From contig RDOA01000011.1 of assembly GCA_011364925.1 (NCBI GenBank), positions 1 to 64,000 of the forward strand: a DNA stretch of 64,000 nucleotides, in the 5' to 3' direction. Positions 18,981-26,466 of this stretch are shown here, piece after piece. Source of the DNA: Promethearchaeota archaeon. GTDB taxonomy: Archaea; Asgardarchaeota; Lokiarchaeia; Sigyniarchaeales; SOKP01. The notes beneath the pieces are model-generated. The model was not told where the DNA came from, searched no databases, and saw only the letters and a list, made by a program, of their open reading frames with translations. A program made the translations under genes and the position numbers. How positions within the stretch are numbered: position 1 is the first letter of the stretch; every line of letters begins with the position of its first letter.

Positions 18981-19823
18981 TTATAATAATTTATTGATGA
19001 AATCAATACTCGTCTTAATTTCCTCATTTGATGAGAGTTCAATAATTAACGCGTCTTTATAATGATGACTTCGGATGGTATCTAGAATTGCTTTGAAATT
19101 AATTTTCCCTGAACCTAGCGAAGGATGGGTATCCGACTCAACAGTATAGTTTTCAACGAGATGCACATTTTTTATGATTTTATGAAATCGTTCCCATAAC
19201 ATATCTACATTTCCATTATTAGTGTAAAAATGACTGGTATCATATGTTAGGAACAAGTCTGGTCTCCCAATTGATTCTAAGATTTGTGCTATGTTATCTT
19301 GATCCAACATAATATGCGTGTTCTTAGTCATATTTTCTAAACAAATTGTTAAATTAAGGTTTTTTGTATAATCCAGTAATTCATTAAGCGCTCGAGACAA
19401 TTGAATCGTATTGAAAACTCTTAATGACTCTAATAAAAAATTAGCTAATCCCGGATGGATTGTTATTAAATCTACATTAATCCTCTTGCACAATTTTGCA
19501 GTTGTTTTATAAGCTTCAACTGAAGCTTGAGAAATAAGATTATTGTGAGAGCACAAGTTAACATCAATAAAAGGACCGTGAACCTGCTTTTTTAATGAAT
19601 ATGAGTTTACTAGCTCAATAAATTCTTCTCTCTTAACTTCTGAATATAAATCCTGAGGATCCACAACAATCTCAACAATTTTAATCTCATTTTCTTCAGC
19701 GAACTTAAGGCATTCCTCTGTTGCGAGGTATAACATATTAGGAATATCATCATACTTACTGCTGAGACCATAATCAATAATATTACCCAAAGAACTTATT
19801 CCTAACTCCACAATTATTCTCAC
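18981..19823 (-). CDS. Sugar phosphate isomerase/epimerase (xylose isomerase-like TIM barrel)
   Basis: The 280-residue protein has the AP-endonuclease-2/xylose-isomerase barrel pattern: an early ELGISSLG strand, LITIHPG, TICLENM with its metal-binding Glu, FLTYDTSHF, NVHLVEN and a final ALIIELSS. These supply the Glu, His and Asp ligands of a divalent metal centre. Members isomerise or epimerise sugars, hydroxypyruvate or tetronates. The GTG start lies six bases after the aldolase stop, so the two genes are co-transcribed. The neighbouring class II aldolases and FGGY kinase suggest a sugar or sugar-acid route. The exact substrate is not readable. Confidence 0.8.
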   Translation of the reverse strand: MRIIVELGISSLGNIIDYGLSSKYDDIPNMLYLATEECLKFAEENEIKIVEIVVDPQDLYSEVKREEFIELVNSYSLKKQVHGPFIDVNLCSHNNLISQASVEAYKTTAKLCKRINVDLITIHPGLANFLLESLRVFNTIQLSRALNELLDYTKNLNLTICLENMTKNTHIMLDQDNIAQILESIGRPDLFLTYDTSHFYTNNGNVDMLWERFHKIIKNVHLVENYTVESDTHPSLGSGKINFKAILDTIRSHHYKDALIIELSSNEEIKTSIDFINKLL

Positions 19824-19829
19824 ACCATT

Positions 19830-20504
19830 TTATGAAGATCTTAGTCTTCTAGGATAAGAAGCAAACAAGCTGGTAAACATTTTCTCGTGTTCTTCAAGAT
19901 TTTCTTCAGGGATAGCTAACGGTTCTCCGATTTGCAATGCACCCCAATATACTTTTGCCAGCTTTTCCAGGATTACAGCAAAACGTACCACATGATCCAA
20001 AGATTTACCACATACAATAGCGCCATGATTTGCTAGAATCGCTGCATTATTTCTACCTAAGGCGTTCAGTGCGCTCACTCCCATCTCTTCCGTGTGAGCT
20101 TCAGTAATTTCAGTACATCGAATTTCACCACCAAGAAAAATCAACTGTTGTTCCATTATAATTGGAATGTTTTTTCTTAGAATTGAAAGCATAGACACAT
20201 AAGGAGAATGATTATGGATAACGCATTTAACTTTAGGTCTATCCTTATATACTGCAAGATGCATTTTAACTTCAGTAGATGGAATTTTACCCGTACCTAT
20301 TACATTCCCGCTTAAATCCATGTGTACAATCAAATCAGGAGTCAATAGATCATACTTAGTTGAAGTGGGAGTCACAAGTATTTCGTTGCTATTTACCCGA
20401 ACACTGACATTACCTTCTCCATCCTCAACCAATCCTTTAGCGTAAATTTCTTGAGCTCCTCTTACAACTATTTTTCGCAATTGTTCTAATTTATCCGTTT
20501 CCAT
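19830..20504 (-). CDS. Class II aldolase (fuculose-phosphate aldolase family)
   Basis: The 224-residue protein has the FucA/AraD fold and an intact zinc site: the catalytic Glu is E78 (PSTEV), and the zinc histidines are H97, H99 (IHNHSPY) and H160 (LANHGA). The family performs retro-aldol cleavage of sugar 1-phosphates to dihydroxyacetone phosphate plus an aldehyde, epimerises ribulose 5-phosphate, or decarboxylates 3-oxo-tetronate phosphates. It heads a two-gene unit with the TIM-barrel isomerase. A second aldolase domain occurs in the fusion protein 2.2 kb upstream, so the cluster encodes two distinct copies. Confidence 0.9.
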   Translation of the reverse strand: METDKLEQLRKIVVRGAQEIYAKGLVEDGEGNVSVRVNSNEILVTPTSTKYDLLTPDLIVHMDLSGNVIGTGKIPSTEVKMHLAVYKDRPKVKCVIHNHSPYVSMLSILRKNIPIIMEQQLIFLGGEIRCTEITEAHTEEMGVSALNALGRNNAAILANHGAIVCGKSLDHVVRFAVILEKLAKVYWGALQIGEPLAIPEENLEEHEKMFTSLFASYPRRLRSS

Positions 20505-20646
20505 ATGAATTTAAATTAAGGATTGATTAAAAACATATTTTCATTGATTTATTACGAGTAACTAAATTAAAAATTCATTTTACTCCGATTTTTTATATTC
20601 TTTTTAGAAATTATAATAATGTCATAGTTCTTAGAAACGATTTAAT

Positions 20647-21735
20647 ATGAACCGGTTTATCTTACATTGCGATTTAGATTGCTTTTTTGCAGCAGTTGAG
20701 GAACGAGATAATCCAGAATATGTAGGTAAACCTATTATTATAGGAGCAGACCCAAAGGATGGTAAAGGAAGAGGAGTGGTTAGTACTTGTAATTATGAGG
20801 CTCGAAAGTTCGGACTCCACTCAGCGATGCCTATATCCCAGGCGTATAGAAAATGTCCTCATGGTATTTACCTTCATCCTAATTTTGAAAAATATCAAAA
20901 AGCATCGAAGGAAGTAATGGAGATTGTTAATTCTTATTCAGATAAATTTCAACAGGTAAGTATCGATGAAGCATATCTTGATGTATCTGATATATGCCAA
21001 GATTTTAAAGAGGTAAGAGAATTAGCTGAAAAATTAAAAAGTGAAATACAAAACAAAATAGGTATTACGATCTCAATAGGATGTGCCCCAACTAAATCTA
21101 TTGCAAAAATCGCTTCTGATTATAATAAACCGAATGGATTTACCATCGTTGAACCAAATCAAATAAATAGTTTTTTAAGTAATTTAGATATTACCCGAAT
21201 TCCTGGAATTGGAAAAAAATCTAAACAGTACTATAACAATAAAGGAATCAAAACTATTGGTGATATTACTAATCTAACGCGCTCTCAGATGGAACATTTA
21301 TTTGGGAAAAACGGGGAATGGGTATGGAATGTTGCACATGGCTTTGATACTCGGGAAGTAAAGGAATTTAGTGGCGATAGGAAATCTATAAGTAAGGAAA
21401 GAACTTTTTATGAGGATACTGATGATCTCAATGTGATTATATCAAAGCTTGAAGATATTAATAATAGATTGCATGATATTATAGTTAAAAATAAGATATA
21501 TTATAAAACGGTAACTCTCAAGATAAGATTTAAGGGATTTTTAACGTATACTCGTTCAAAATCCTTTCCTCATCATGTTCAAGATAAAAGCCAAGCGTTA
21601 AAAGTAATTATTGAACTATTGAATCAATTTTCAAATGAAAATAAGAAAGTCAGGCTTGTTGGAATAAAGTTATCAAATTTAGAAAAAGCTCTGAATTTCT
21701 CCCAAACTACTATAATAAGTTATTTAGAAGTTTAA
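20647..21735 (+). CDS. dinB: DNA polymerase IV (Y-family, DinB)
   Basis: A translesion polymerase for damaged templates. The palm carboxylates lie in HCDLDCFFA (D9, D11) and VSIDEAYLD. Y-family motifs STCNYEARKFG and ISIGCAPTKSIAKIAS are intact, followed by the helix-hairpin-helix (IPGIGKKS) and the little-finger domain. The C-terminus holds QTTIISYL, matching a PCNA-interacting PIP box. It is the only plus-strand gene inside the minus-strand carbohydrate-type cluster, with short gaps on both sides, which looks like an insertion into the cluster. Confidence 0.95.
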   Translation: MNRFILHCDLDCFFAAVEERDNPEYVGKPIIIGADPKDGKGRGVVSTCNYEARKFGLHSAMPISQAYRKCPHGIYLHPNFEKYQKASKEVMEIVNSYSDKFQQVSIDEAYLDVSDICQDFKEVRELAEKLKSEIQNKIGITISIGCAPTKSIAKIASDYNKPNGFTIVEPNQINSFLSNLDITRIPGIGKKSKQYYNNKGIKTIGDITNLTRSQMEHLFGKNGEWVWNVAHGFDTREVKEFSGDRKSISKERTFYEDTDDLNVIISKLEDINNRLHDIIVKNKIYYKTVTLKIRFKGFLTYTRSKSFPHHVQDKSQALKVIIELLNQFSNENKKVRLVGIKLSNLEKALNFSQTTIISYLEV

Positions 21736-21745
21736 ATTAAAGTAA

Positions 21746-22678
21746 TTAGCTATTCTCAAGAACGTTACTAGATTGTAATGCTTGTATTAAATCATTGTGC
21801 ATAAGTCCATTCGAGGCAATAAGACCGGGGGCAGAAACAATGCATTTTTCATCTATGTATTTAATAGATTCACCTTTTAAATCAGTTATCATGCCACCAG
21901 CTTCTCTAACCAATAAATCTCCCGGCAGAAAGTCCCAAGTATATGAATGTTGAATGTTTAAAGGTTTAACATAAATTTCAGCTGAACCATCTGCTATCAT
22001 ACACAATTTAGCCATACTATCCATCCGAATGTAACTTGAAATACCAATCGAATTAGCAAATTCCAACACCCATGGTTTATTGTAATGTAGAGAATAACAC
22101 ATGCGAAACTTCTTTATATCTTCATTACTACTTACTTTTAATTTAGTAAAGGCAAGGTCACCAAACGATACCCTCGCTCCTTGATTTTTTTCAGCTGCAA
22201 ATATAGCTAATTTCATATCTTTATAATTAGGAACACCAATAGCACATATTTTTGGTTCAAAACCAATCATAAATCCAATTCCTATAGCATATGCTAAATC
22301 TTCCTGAAAACCCTTGGTACCATCAATAGGATCGACTGTCCACTGGCGATTAGAGCTTGGACCGCGGTAATTTAGCATTTCTTCTAAATCTCCTTCAAAC
22401 TGGACCTGATTTGATTTATAACATCTCTTTATTAATTCTTCAATTTTTGGATTAAAAAAGTCGCCACTTTCCTCTTCAGCGATAATTTGGTCGTTAGGAA
22501 AATTTTTCCTAATTTCAGATATTATTAAAATCTGAGACGCAAAATCTGCTAATGTGACGGGGGAATCATCTTTCTTTATATACGATGAAGAATGTTTGAT
22601 TTTAAACCATTCTGTAATTTTGGCAGCAATTTCTACTAAATTAATGGCTAAAGAGGATTCTCTGCTATAGTCAACCAT
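21746..22678 (-). CDS. Inositol monophosphatase-family phosphatase (Hal2/CysQ-like)
   Basis: Metal motifs of the lithium-sensitive phosphatase superfamily are present: EEESGDF, DPIDGTKGF and WDFLPGDLLVREAGG. DPIDGTKGF rather than DPLDGT, together with SPVTLADFASQ, resembles 3'(2'),5'-bisphosphate nucleotidases such as Hal2, which remove PAP. Archaeal IMPase/FBPase members are about 260 residues; this protein is 310, closer to the Hal2 length. I start at ATG 22678, not the in-frame TTG at 22687. It lies 51 bases downstream of the dehydrogenase-aldolase fusion gene and may share its transcript, so a sugar phosphate substrate is also possible. Confidence 0.85.
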   Translation of the reverse strand: MVDYSRESSLAINLVEIAAKITEWFKIKHSSSYIKKDDSPVTLADFASQILIISEIRKNFPNDQIIAEEESGDFFNPKIEELIKRCYKSNQVQFEGDLEEMLNYRGPSSNRQWTVDPIDGTKGFQEDLAYAIGIGFMIGFEPKICAIGVPNYKDMKLAIFAAEKNQGARVSFGDLAFTKLKVSSNEDIKKFRMCYSLHYNKPWVLEFANSIGISSYIRMDSMAKLCMIADGSAEIYVKPLNIQHSYTWDFLPGDLLVREAGGMITDLKGESIKYIDEKCIVSAPGLIASNGLMHNDLIQALQSSNVLENS

Positions 22679-22729
22679 AGATATCAACTTTTTTTTATAA
22701 AGAAACTTGGATTTATGATCATGTCAAAG

Positions 22730-24412
22730 TTAGATTTTTTTAGAATCTTTAAAAAGATCAAAAACATCCATTTCATAATCAATTGTGTCTTCAGGGAGGA
22801 GAGAAGGCTCTTTAATTAATTTCGCTAAATAATAAATTTTAGATCCCCTTTCTAAATATCGTAACACAGTGTAGGCACCTTCTAAATGACTCCCACAGCA
22901 TAAACTTCCATGGTTTGCGAGAATTACAGCATTTCTCTCTTCTAAACTTGCAAGCACATTCTCAGCTAAATCTAGACTCCCCGCTTCTCCATATTTTGCA
23001 CATTTTACTTCTCCTCCTAAGTAAGGAACAAGTTCTTCCATTACGGGAGGTAAAGTTAAATTGAGAGTGCTAAGTATTGTTGAAAATACACCATGAGAGT
23101 GGATTATCGCATTGACATCTTCACGTTCTTTATAAATGCCTAGATGGAGATTCTTTTCTACTGATGGATTTCTTTCCCCTTCAATAACTTTACCATCTAG
23201 ATTTATAATTAAAATGTCACTCGATACCATTTCTTCATAATTTACATTACTAGGCGTAATCAATACCATTTCTTCGTTCTCTCTTCTTATTCTCATGCTC
23301 ACATTTCCCGCCGATCCAATAACATGACTATCATCTAGTAATCTTTTACAAATCCTTACAATTTCTTCTTTGCATTTTTTGATTGACTCATCCAATGGCT
23401 CCTTTTTTTCTTTATATTCTTCAAAAACTTCAGGATTTAACACATGTGAAGGAATTCCTTTATTTAACCAAGTTTCAATATCAGCAAGGAGCATTTTTGA
23501 TTGTCTCTGTATAACCTCGTTTGTATTTCCACAAACATGAGGCAATACTATGACATTATCTAATTTTAAAAACTCATTATCTTCATCAATAGGTTCTAAG
23601 GGAAAGACATCTAATGCCGCTCCAGCAATATCTCTATTTTTTAGAGCTTGGAATAAGTAATCGTAGTCTACTAAGCTTGCTTTCGCAGTGTTTATTAAAA
23701 ATGCTGTTTGCTTCATCATATTTATATATTCTTCATTAATTAAATTATCATTCTCGTCAGTTGCAACAGCATGAATAGTGATAAAATCGGACTCTTTCAT
23801 TAACATATCCAAGTCTGTTTTCTCACCGTATTTTTCAACAATTTCATCTGAAACTAACGGATCGTAAATGAGTAGCTTAACTCCAAATGGCTTTAAGCGT
23901 TCAGCAACTCGATGTCCTATTTGACCAAAACCAATAATTCCAATTGTCTTATCCATTAGTTCACTCCCCATAAACCTATTATAACATTTAATCCAATCTT
24001 CGAATTCAATTATTTCAAAATCATCAGAATGCAAAAACTTATCAACTTGAGTCAAATTTCTCGCTAAAGATATTATTAATCCTATTGTTAACTCAGCAAC
24101 CGCAACAACATTCCTAAGAGGAGTATAAATAACAGGGATTTTTTTGTGTGTGGCAGCCTCTAAATTAATATTAAATGGATCGCCTCTGCAAGATCCAATC
24201 AATTTTAAATTAGTGCTTTCAAATAATTCAGCCTTTTTTAAATCATCTGCAACCGTAATAAAAATATCATAGTCTTTTAACTTTTCAATCATTTCATTAA
24301 CATCAAAATAAATAATACCAGTTTCTCTCCAGCTCTCATATGTAATATCTAATTTCGTTTCCAATTTTTCTAAAACATCATCAGATATACTTGCAGTAAT
24401 AAATGCTCTCAT
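22730..24412 (-). CDS. Fusion of D-2-hydroxyacid dehydrogenase and class II aldolase
   Basis: Residues 1-330 are a D-2-hydroxyacid dehydrogenase of the phosphoglycerate-dehydrogenase type: CRGDPFNINLEAAT, RNVVAVAELT, the NAD motif GFGQIG at 161-166, the Glu at E273 (LEP) and the His at H292 (PHVCGN). The catalytic Arg position in NTAK is Lys (K244). After a charged linker, residues 340-560 are a class II aldolase with E419, H438, H440 and H501 all in place. The joined reactions suggest channelling of an oxidised or reduced sugar acid into cleavage. Start ATG 24412 follows AGGTGA by six bases. The reading frame is continuous with no sign of assembly error. Confidence 0.9.
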   Translation of the reverse strand: MRAFITASISDDVLEKLETKLDITYESWRETGIIYFDVNEMIEKLKDYDIFITVADDLKKAELFESTNLKLIGSCRGDPFNINLEAATHKKIPVIYTPLRNVVAVAELTIGLIISLARNLTQVDKFLHSDDFEIIEFEDWIKCYNRFMGSELMDKTIGIIGFGQIGHRVAERLKPFGVKLLIYDPLVSDEIVEKYGEKTDLDMLMKESDFITIHAVATDENDNLINEEYINMMKQTAFLINTAKASLVDYDYLFQALKNRDIAGAALDVFPLEPIDEDNEFLKLDNVIVLPHVCGNTNEVIQRQSKMLLADIETWLNKGIPSHVLNPEVFEEYKEKKEPLDESIKKCKEEIVRICKRLLDDSHVIGSAGNVSMRIRRENEEMVLITPSNVNYEEMVSSDILIINLDGKVIEGERNPSVEKNLHLGIYKEREDVNAIIHSHGVFSTILSTLNLTLPPVMEELVPYLGGEVKCAKYGEAGSLDLAENVLASLEERNAVILANHGSLCCGSHLEGAYTVLRYLERGSKIYYLAKLIKEPSLLPEDTIDYEMDVFDLFKDSKKI

Positions 24413-24418
24413 CACTTC

Positions 24419-24424
24419 TCACCT
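24419..24424 (-). promoter_or_regulatory. Ribosome-binding site deciding the fusion-gene start
   Basis: On the minus strand this reads AGGTGA, a full match to the archaeal anti-Shine-Dalgarno, six bases before ATG 24412. It is too close to the in-frame GTG at 24415 to serve it equally well, so ATG 24412 is preferred. Confidence 0.6.
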
Positions 24425-24512
24425 CATTAAATAATATAAAGCAAATTTAGATAAAGATTAATAAAAATCAAATAATGAAATTGTGAATCAATAAAAAAAT
24501 AATTGAATTTTC

Positions 24513-24863
24513 TTAGAACATCAAGCTTTTTAACTTCATTAAATTCCGAATTTGACCTTCAACAACCTTAATTTTTCCAGAAGAATAGGCTTTTACTGCT
24601 CCAAGCTTTTTATTAAATAGTTCTAACATAATCTTTTCTGAAGAAAATTCAATTTTTACGGGAGCTTTTTCATCACTAGTATTATCCTTTACCTCAATTC
24701 CTTGATCGTTATGTACTAGAATCATTACATTTCGATTAGTATCTAAGAATGTTACCTGTATCGGTTCCTCGTAATTGGCTAATTTTTTTCTAATTTTTTC
24801 AGTATTATTATAACGGTTCTCAATTTCTTTTAAGCAAGCTTCTATACTATTAAACTCCGACAT
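24513..24863 (-). CDS. SCP2-like sterol/lipid-carrier domain protein
   Basis: The 116-residue protein consists of a single SCP-2 domain. The late segment GKIKVVEGQIRNLMKLKSL matches the characteristic ending of the family, and the middle PVKIEFSSEKIMLELF matches its strand-helix pattern. SCP2 domains bind fatty acyl-CoA or other hydrophobic ligands. A helical N-terminus (about 1-30) precedes it. It lies between the FGGY kinase and the dehydrogenase-aldolase fusion, 88 and 100 bases away, with its own GGGGTGTGATG leader. A lipid-binding role beside sugar genes is unexplained. Confidence 0.8.
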   Translation of the reverse strand: MSEFNSIEACLKEIENRYNNTEKIRKKLANYEEPIQVTFLDTNRNVMILVHNDQGIEVKDNTSDEKAPVKIEFSSEKIMLELFNKKLGAVKAYSSGKIKVVEGQIRNLMKLKSLMF

Positions 24864-24951
24864 TACATCACACCCCTATAATACTAATTTAACTTTTAAA
24901 TGAATTAATTATCTTTCGTTTTTAAAATTAAATAAATTAAATAATTTAAAG

Positions 24952-26466
24952 TTATAATGTATCAACTTTATTTTTAAGGTTCTTCCATTCAATATAAACA
25001 GATTTATAAATCTCCGAAATGCTATGGTCATTTTTTATTTTCTCATAAGTAATTAGATCCTTAACCATAGGCTTGTAATCTGAATAAACATTTAACGCCT
25101 TCAAAACATTCATAGCAACACCAATAAAAGCCGATTCTTTTATTAATGGAACTAGTAATTCCGAATCTAATATATTCGCTAACAATTGGTTAAATTCTTT
25201 TGATTTAGACATTCCTCCTGCACAAAATGGTTTTGTATCGAAATCAACAAAGCTATTAAGTGCTTCATAATTTTCATATAATCCAAAAGCGATATTTTCA
25301 AGAATACTTCTCGCAAAATCCTCAATGTTCGGTAGCTCATCAGAAACCATCATTGGAGGTTGAAATGCGAATATACCTCTCTTTATTGAAGTCTGATTTT
25401 TAATATTCATATTTTCAGGTCCCAAATAAGCGTAAGTGGATAAAGCTCCTGGTGAAGATTTCTTCAAATATGTGTCCATCAGTAAATCGGGATTGTCATT
25501 TGAATTGGAGAGAAAACATTGCTTAAACCAATTATATGAAGCTCCTGTGTTTCCAGCGTGCCCTTCCAATAACCATTTTCCTTTTAGTGAATGACAAGAT
25601 GTCCAATAATTGCACGAGGCATCAATTATTGGCTCATTTAGTACAAGATCAATAGGGGCTGTTGTACCTAAACTGAATCCAATATCTCCTTGTTCAATTG
25701 CCCCCATACCTAACAATGTTGCTTGTGTATCTCCACCTGATTTTACTACGGGAATAGTACCTTGATTAAGATTAAATTTTTTAGCCATCTCAAGTTTTAA
25801 TTGACCAACTACAGTTCCAGATTCGACTATATCTGGGAAGAAATCTGGATTGAAATCAAAAGCTTGTATAATTTCACTACTCCATTCTCTCTTTTTTATA
25901 TCTAATAATTGAGATTCTGCTGCAGCAGAAAAATCACTAACATAGATTCCAGTAAGTTTGTATACCAACCAATCATCTAACGCTAGGACTTTTCCTATTT
26001 TATCATAGGTTTCTTCCTCCTCTTCTCTAAACCATAACAACCTTGCTAGGCAAAATAAAAAAGAAGGACAATGACCAGTTATATCAAACAGATCTCGCTC
26101 TATAAATTCGTTCTCTATTAAATACGCGGAATCTATTCCACGAATATCTATATTTGGGCCCCCGTAAAGTACTTTTCCCTTCTTGTCTAAAAATACTGAC
26201 GCCATCCTTTGAGCGCAAGTTGATATTCCTATAACTTTGGAATTTTGATTCGTAATTTTAGAAATTGCTTGGTTTACTCCTAAAATTAATTTGTTCCAAA
26301 GATCCTCAATGTCAAATCTTTTAGCAAAACCATCTAGATCTTCGTTAAAGATTTTAATAGTTTGACTGTTGGTATGAATTAATTTTAAATCTTCTGAAAC
26401 TAAACCAACTTTCACGGAATTAGATGAAACATCGATTACGATGATAAAATTTCCATTATTTTCCAT
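24952..26466 (-). CDS. FGGY-family carbohydrate kinase (xylulokinase-like)
   Basis: FGGY kinases phosphorylate pentoses, hexoses, glycerol or tetritols. The N-terminal phosphate loop is VIDVSSNSVKVGL, where most members have DxGTxS. The second actin-like half has the phosphate-2 motif SLGTTAP and the adenosine motif AGGMSKSKEFNQL. An LALDDWLVYKLTG segment with the catalytic-region Asp is present. Start ATG 26466 follows AGTGA by five bases; GTG 26475 is the alternative. It begins 26 bases after the AMMECR1 gene. Together with the aldolases and dehydrogenase it would supply the phosphorylated substrate for cleavage. Confidence 0.9.
   Translation of the reverse strand: MENNGNFIIVIDVSSNSVKVGLVSEDLKLIHTNSQTIKIFNEDLDGFAKRFDIEDLWNKLILGVNQAISKITNQNSKVIGISTCAQRMASVFLDKKGKVLYGGPNIDIRGIDSAYLIENEFIERDLFDITGHCPSFLFCLARLLWFREEEEETYDKIGKVLALDDWLVYKLTGIYVSDFSAAAESQLLDIKKREWSSEIIQAFDFNPDFFPDIVESGTVVGQLKLEMAKKFNLNQGTIPVVKSGGDTQATLLGMGAIEQGDIGFSLGTTAPIDLVLNEPIIDASCNYWTSCHSLKGKWLLEGHAGNTGASYNWFKQCFLSNSNDNPDLLMDTYLKKSSPGALSTYAYLGPENMNIKNQTSIKRGIFAFQPPMMVSDELPNIEDFARSILENIAFGLYENYEALNSFVDFDTKPFCAGGMSKSKEFNQLLANILDSELLVPLIKESAFIGVAMNVLKALNVYSDYKPMVKDLITYEKIKNDHSISEIYKSVYIEWKNLKNKVDTL

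Follow-up and report, generated by a model that had tools for sequence, protein, structure and literature searches.

A conserved FGGY kinase, SCP2 protein and dehydrogenase-aldolase fusion as a candidate catabolic operon of Asgard archaea

The DNA analyzed was a 64,000-nucleotide stretch of a Promethearchaeota archaeon of the class Lokiarchaeia (positions 1 to 64,000, forward strand, of contig RDOA01000011.1, GenBank assembly GCA_011364925.1), referred to here as the window. The host genome is archaeal, 3.9 Mb in size, with a G+C content of ~32%. The element under study is a module of three minus-strand genes encoding an FGGY kinase (KIN), a small SCP2-domain protein and a fusion of a 2-hydroxyacid dehydrogenase (DH) with a class II aldolase (ALD). 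Beside it lie genes for a phosphatase, a DNA polymerase IV, a second class II aldolase (ALD2) and an AP_endonuc_2 TIM-barrel protein (TIM) (Table 1). A preliminary description had named six proteins, leaving out the polymerase, and all six were located near the positions it gave, with the Pfam families it assigned and each on the minus strand. Its wording that they lie on one strand over 7.5 kb was correct for the six genes and misleading in omitting the plus-strand gene among them.

Table 1. Genes and domains at the locus, with positions in the window
Feature	Position	Strand	Assignment
FGGY kinase (KIN), 507 amino acids	24952..26475	-	Pfam FGGY_N/FGGY_C; autoinducer-2 (AI-2) kinase (LsrK)-like subfamily
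SCP2-domain protein, 116 amino acids, sterol-carrier/lipid-binding fold	24513..24863	-	Pfam SCP2
Dehydrogenase-aldolase fusion (2-hydroxyacid dehydrogenase + Aldolase_II)	22730-24415	-	Pfam
Fusion N-terminal domain, SerA/glyoxylate-reductase-like 2-hydroxyacid dehydrogenase, residues ~1-337	23405..24415	-	Pfam 2-Hacid_dh_C; PDB 1wwk, 5aov
Fusion C-terminal domain, FucA/DrdA-like class II aldolase, residues 343-561 + stop codon	22730..23389	-	Pfam Aldolase_II; PDB 6btd
HAL2/CysQ-like IMPase-fold phosphatase, outside the module	21746..22687	-	Pfam Inositol_P; NCBIfam best HAL2, under cut-off; PDB 4hxv
DNA polymerase IV (Dpo4/DinB), outside the module	20647..21735	+	IMS Pfam domains; NCBIfam 369.7 bits, over cut-off
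ALD2, FucA-like class II aldolase, separate conserved block	19830..20504	-	Pfam Aldolase_II; PDB 7x78/1fua
TIM, AP_endonuc_2 protein adjoining ALD2, separate conserved block	18981..19823	-	Pfam AP_endonuc_2; best PDB MJ1311, 3wqo

Along the minus strand the intergenic gaps are 88 bp (KIN to SCP2), 97 bp (SCP2 to fusion) and 42 bp (fusion to phosphatase). The next gap, from the phosphatase to ALD2, measures 1,241 bp and spans the DNA polymerase IV gene; ALD2 and TIM are 6 bp apart. The plus-strand gene therefore divides the locus into two runs, KIN-SCP2-fusion-phosphatase and ALD2-TIM. Promoter-like matches were found at ~1 standard deviation over shuffled sequence and terminator-like matches at the level of the shuffles, using a bacterial consensus unsuited to archaea.

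The distribution of the fusion was taken from a profile search of 228 Asgard genomes, after which 80 neighbourhoods were inspected gene by gene. Gene neighbourhoods are given L-numbers and genomes G-numbers, G000 being the window's own genome. A full or nearly full fusion was found in ~54 of the 228 genomes, nearly always as a single open frame, and is thus not an assembly error. The window-type fusion is termed type A and a divergent fusion type is termed type B. In many other genomes the dehydrogenase and aldolase matches lie ~1.5 kb apart, with the kinase gene usually filling the gap (DH-KIN-ALD); in most Asgard lineages the three are separate genes. DH, KIN and ALD were found together within 3.1-5.5 kb at 62 Asgard loci, distributed over 13 GTDB families. 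Conservation of the neighbourhood in relatives, on which the preliminary description had staked its proposal, was thereby confirmed for this core, of which the three other genes are not part.

Around the 62 loci, SCP2 genes were counted up to two genes away and genes for aldehyde:ferredoxin oxidoreductase (AOR) up to four genes away. SCP2 was present at 53 loci from 7 families, and AOR, confirmed by Pfam, at 18 loci from 6 families. Family f18, with the gene order AOR-SCP2-ALD-KIN-DH, is an eighth SCP2 family; it falls outside the count as its ALD scores under the cut used there. The window's genome holds 9 SCP2 and 16 AOR genes in total, which gives naive per-locus chances of ~1% for SCP2 and ~4% for AOR; owing to kinship among the loci, the family counts are the safer measure. 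KIN, SCP2 and the fusion occur together far more often than chance would allow. SCP2, which the preliminary description had merely listed, is in relatives the unusual conserved partner of the module, and the link to AOR is visible only in other genomes. All 16 AOR genes of G000 lie away from the module.

Further oxidoreductase genes were recorded close to the module. In family f21 a gene for a GltD/NfnB-like flavoprotein follows AOR, and at two loci (L181, L207) such a position before SCP2 is taken by a NiFe-hydrogenase large-subunit gene, which precedes it. Genes for a GlcD-type FAD oxidase and/or a cysteine-rich CCG subunit are close by at five loci, an aldo/keto reductase gene adjoins KIN in family f15, and L031/L032 carry an iron-type alcohol dehydrogenase plus a second SCP2. 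These neighbours all fit an aldehyde or hydroxy-acid product. Major facilitator superfamily (MFS) genes were seen near the module only at L182 and L189. At one locus of G053 (L042:7813-13004) a DH-KIN pair has as neighbours a NeuB-type synthase and an epimerase fused with CBS domains, a gene setting of the nucleotide-sugar or nonulosonate kind.

In a tree of the dehydrogenase, 34 fused rows and one re-split row (L064, divided close to the domain border) formed a single clade with an SH-aLRT of 98, and the separate genes were placed elsewhere. The division into types A and B was recovered in the kinase tree as well. The single fused clade indicates that DH and ALD were joined once, in a lineage represented today by the Loki order and family f15.

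The phosphatase, ALD2 and TIM genes were found to be a syntenic block of their own, independent of KIN-SCP2-fusion, and their clustering with the module is not a functional linkage. Within the window's genus a type A fusion is present in 14 of 24 genomes and type B in 2; a full-length fusion is missing from the remaining 8, which include G008 and G009, both 100% complete. The slot in G009 (L048) is without KIN, SCP2 and fusion, with the HAL2-like phosphatase, DNA polymerase IV, ALD2 and TIM all present. In G004 (L044) KIN residues 3-51 run straight into fusion residues 452-560, a junction from which it follows that one deletion took the rest of KIN, SCP2 and most of the fusion; HAL2 (63%), ALD2 (84%) and TIM (65%) are still kept. 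ALD2 and TIM are also retained without the module at L049 and L050. Other genera and families carry the module elsewhere, without ALD2 or TIM (L065, L066, L196 and L031-L037). These losses at L048 and L044, together with the module at L065, L066, L196 and the type B loci without the three extra genes, contradict the proposal of the preliminary description that six genes with two aldolases serve one pathway. Six genes as a single operon were ruled out by strand, synteny and the deletion scar. In two genomes of the genus, G005 (L069) and G011 (L033), a type B module fills the same chromosomal slot in reverse orientation; the shared slot suggests that type A and type B modules replace each other functionally.

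Across the window's genus the tight ALD2-TIM pair has a NikR-like gene on one side and DNA polymerase IV on the other; L060 and L069 keep ALD2 but have no TIM gene. In relatives, a 693-residue protein with a DHDPS/NAL-type aldolase and an APH/fructosamine-kinase-like domain (assigned by Pfam) often occupies the slot that separates AMMECR1 from DNA polymerase IV. It was located at L048:3309-5390, with members of the same cluster at L044, L050, L056, L057, L059, L060, L063, L193-L195, L199 and L211. This is a second aldolase-kinase fusion at the site of the module and is absent from the window.

The core of the module is assigned, from its sequences, as an AI-2-kinase-like FGGY kinase, a SerA-like dehydrogenase and a FucA/DrdA-like aldolase. 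The kinase is conserved in all module loci, with its catalytic Asp (D249) invariant. The kinase family profile (A3) gave LsrK (5ya0) as best PDB match at 320 bits, the next being glycerol kinase at 216 bits; for the kinase of a relative, almost all of the top annotated matches on plasmids were LsrK. The window KIN scored 193 bits against the LsrK model NF008187 (cut-off 528) and 124 bits against the FucK model TIGR02628 (cut-off 470.9), reaching neither, and the xylulokinase cut-off was also not reached. No NCBIfam equivalog cut-off was reached by KIN, the fusion, the HAL2-like phosphatase, ALD2 or TIM.

The closest solved relative of the aldolase domain is DrdA (PDB 6btd, E 1.1e-43), which splits 5-deoxyribulose 1-phosphate into dihydroxyacetone phosphate (DHAP) and acetaldehyde (PMC6079011). 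The metal ligands His439, His441 and His502 and the acid-base residue Glu420 are invariant in 17 fusions and align with those of DrdA. Against the FucA models the domain scored 184 bits (PRK06833, cut-off 264) and 101 bits (TIGR01086, cut-off 400), and against the OtnC model NF043034 it scored 105 bits (cut-off 250); none of the three cut-offs was reached. The E. coli 2-hydroxyacid dehydrogenase matches to DH are to SerA. The Arg-Glu-His catalytic triad is complete in type B and separate dehydrogenases, except at L039, which has Asp for Glu. An AlphaFold model of the fusion gave a mean pLDDT of 80 and a pTM of 0.52, at which the arrangement of the domains is not interpretable.

The SCP2 protein matched Pfam PF02036 at 30.1 bits (cut-off 21.3). 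Its AlphaFold model has a pLDDT of 87, and Foldseek returned a probability of 1.00 to many SCP2 structures, comprising lipid carriers of the SCP2 type and alkylsulfatase SCP2 domains. Type B SCP2 proteins are longer (~260-300 residues) and have a hydrophobic N-terminal stretch that, judged from the sequence, is probably membrane-spanning.

Sets of the same enzyme classes were sampled outside Asgard archaea, non-exhaustively, via patterns in the dehydrogenase half. Dorea sp. D27 has two: an ABC transporter-alcohol dehydrogenase-DhaKL-regulator-KIN-DH-ALD-DH-KIN array (L217) and a DH-sugar ABC transporter-ALD-alcohol dehydrogenase-KIN array (L219). Halomarina (L227) carries DH and sugar ABC genes next to a plasmid gene (L227:9371-10708, 445 residues) whose product resembles a tandem of two FucA-type aldolase domains. 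An aldolase-kinase pair was seen in Halorhabdus, and an ABC-isomerase-kinase-aldolase operon in Ruegeria. SCP2 or AOR was seen in none of these sampled bacterial and haloarchaeal sets. Unlike the Asgard module, the Dorea and Halomarina sets are without the fusion, have sugar importers and contain kinases that match the KIN profile less closely (193-194 bits, versus >400 in Asgard archaea). YoaD and YoaC of B. subtilis, a 2-hydroxyacid dehydrogenase and an FGGY kinase, may be a further parallel; the one paper found on them guesses at cysteine degradation.

With moderate confidence, KIN-SCP2-fusion is read as the Lokiarchaeota form of an Asgard-wide catabolic operon, in which a substrate is phosphorylated and then cleaved to DHAP and an aldehyde; we infer the reaction order, the products and the catabolic direction. 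KIN would phosphorylate a primary hydroxyl, either in a ketose-like substrate or in a compound from which DH makes a ketone or keto acid. Retro-aldol cleavage of the phosphorylated product by the metal-dependent aldolase domain would then yield DHAP, which would feed into glycolysis, and an aldehyde, which would be oxidised by the AOR co-encoded in many lineages or by another oxidoreductase. DH may act just before cleavage, preparing the substrate, or just after it, handling the aldehyde or acid product, and its fusion to ALD would hold the intermediate in place. The part of SCP2 is presumably to bind a hydrophobic ligand or to present it. The sugar or sugar-acid cleavage pathway of the preliminary description is thus retained, as kinase/dehydrogenase/class II aldolase cleavage, for KIN-SCP2-fusion and abandoned for the six-gene extent.

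This scheme resembles L-fucose and L-rhamnose degradation (FucK/RhaB with FucA/RhaD), in which an FGGY kinase is followed by a metal-dependent FucA-fold aldolase giving DHAP and an aldehyde. It differs from them in that KIN and ALD score far under the FucK and FucA cut-offs, no isomerase belongs to the set, DH is fused to ALD, and SCP2 and AOR are partners. The preliminary description had matched the genes to no known set, and this was borne out: no characterised set was reached at curated cut-offs, and the open-access literature, searched for the enzyme combination, for Lokiarchaeota with fuculose, and for Asgard archaea with AOR, glycolaldehyde or SCP2, yielded no account of the set.

Several observations weigh against a phosphorylation and cleavage route. 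The position of the FucA catalytic Tyr (Y113 of E. coli FucA) appears as Glu/Asp family-wide, in a loop of uncertain alignment, so the predicted cleavage may not be a classical retro-aldol reaction. The catalytic Arg of the dehydrogenase, present in solved enzymes as well as in type B and separate forms, is replaced by Lys in all type A proteins, with Glu and His kept; in the window this is Lys245 of the fusion (23681-23683), in the motif INTAKAS. AOR is absent at the window's own locus. Neither an isomerase nor a dedicated importer is conserved with the module among the module loci. A small polar substrate leaves SCP2 unexplained. The activities of all enzymes in the set are predictions from sequence.

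A tetronate-type pathway, in which DH would oxidise a sugar acid, KIN would phosphorylate the keto acid and the aldolase domain would decarboxylate it like OtnC to DHAP and CO2, is considered unlikely. It shares the dehydrogenase-kinase-class II aldolase-fold logic of the L-threonate and D-erythronate pathways (OtnK, OtnI, OtnC, DenD/LtnD), sugar-acid sets of the same enzyme classes, which the preliminary description had cited, are known, the dehydrogenase family works on 2-hydroxy acids, and the aldolase domain does match the OtnC model. That match is well under the cut-off, however, and the domain is closer to the FucA-type model PRK06833 and to DrdA. The only kinase of the module is FGGY and not a four-carbon acid sugar kinase (DUF1537), DH is of the SerA type, TIM lies outside the conserved set, and no 2-oxo-tetronate isomerase is conserved with the module. 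The AOR partner implies an aldehyde product, which also counts against this route.

Degradation of a lipid head group is judged quite unlikely and is kept alive mainly because SCP2 is odd in a sugar pathway. SCP2 would present a hydrophobic polyol-ended molecule such as a bacteriohopanepolyol, KIN would phosphorylate its terminal CH2OH, DH would make the adjacent ketone, ALD would release DHAP and a lipid aldehyde, and AOR would convert the latter to an acid; the predicted chemistry would close using exactly the enzymes of the module. SCP2 is its most constant partner, the fold is like lipid and alkylsulfatase SCP2 domains, and the hydrophobic N-terminus of the type B proteins would also suit such a ligand. 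SCP2 is missing, though, in 6 of the 13 families, and the sugar ABC and phosphotransferase systems beside the nearest non-Asgard sets, with the MFS genes at L182 and L189, point to small soluble substrates. A bacteriohopanetetrol version is decidedly doubtful: the tetrol side chain would be degraded to DHAP and a C32 lipid aldehyde, which AOR would convert to C32 hopanoic acid. C32 hopanoic acid is known from sediments.

Salvage of AI-2 (as 4,5-dihydroxy-2,3-pentanedione, DPD) or of a 5-deoxypentulose is likewise held to be decidedly unlikely. Here KIN would phosphorylate DPD or a deoxyketose, DH would reduce the dicarbonyl, and the DrdA-like domain would give DHAP and acetaldehyde, which AOR would turn into acetate. 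As in the AI-2 lsr pathway, LsrK is by far the closest solved kinase and the closest annotated one, topping the annotated plasmid matches. As in 5-deoxyribose disposal (the DHAP shunt, DrdK-DrdI-DrdA), the closest solved aldolase is DrdA, the products would be DHAP and an aldehyde, and AOR suits the latter. KIN nevertheless scores far under the LsrK cut-off, and a FucA-type aldolase stands in place of LsrG/LsrF. LuxS was considered as backing for the AI-2 route and dropped, being present in 0 of 39 genomes including the window's own; uptake of external AI-2 would be compatible with this. DrdK resembles methylthioribose kinase and not FGGY (PMC6079011), and the conserved set of the module has neither a methylthioribose-kinase-like kinase or phosphorylase nor an MtnA-like isomerase. 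The drd set is without a 2-hydroxyacid dehydrogenase and SCP2, both present in the module, and SCP2 would be left unexplained.

A single pathway of all six genes, with two aldolases, an isomerase and a phosphatase, is highly improbable: the genes do share one strand and a span of 7.5 kb in the window and several genomes of the genus (L053, L055, L058), but the set is interrupted by DNA polymerase IV, it is contradicted by a gene content in which the extra three persist alone and the module is found without them, and the single-event deletion in G004 hit the module only.

Read as a phosphorylation and cleavage operon, the module belongs to the known type of kinase-dehydrogenase-class II aldolase catabolism and is marked out within it by an Asgard-specific fusion, by SCP2 as a constant partner and by AOR as a frequent one; its enzyme classes are not unique to Asgard archaea. 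Asgard catabolism has been little tested biochemically, and the module is conserved in at least 13 families of the archaeal phylum nearest to eukaryotes. One kinase, one fused dehydrogenase-aldolase and one small SCP2 protein make a defined target for substrate hunting. For a sugar pathway, SCP2 is an unexpected constant partner and could hint at lipid-linked substrates. Were the bacteriohopanetetrol version true, a product known from geochemistry would have its source in an enzyme pathway, and Asgard archaea would have a new means of using lipids of bacteria as food. An ordinary sugar as the substrate would still close a gap in the carbon metabolism of Asgard archaea, and the module may account for part of the many AOR copies.

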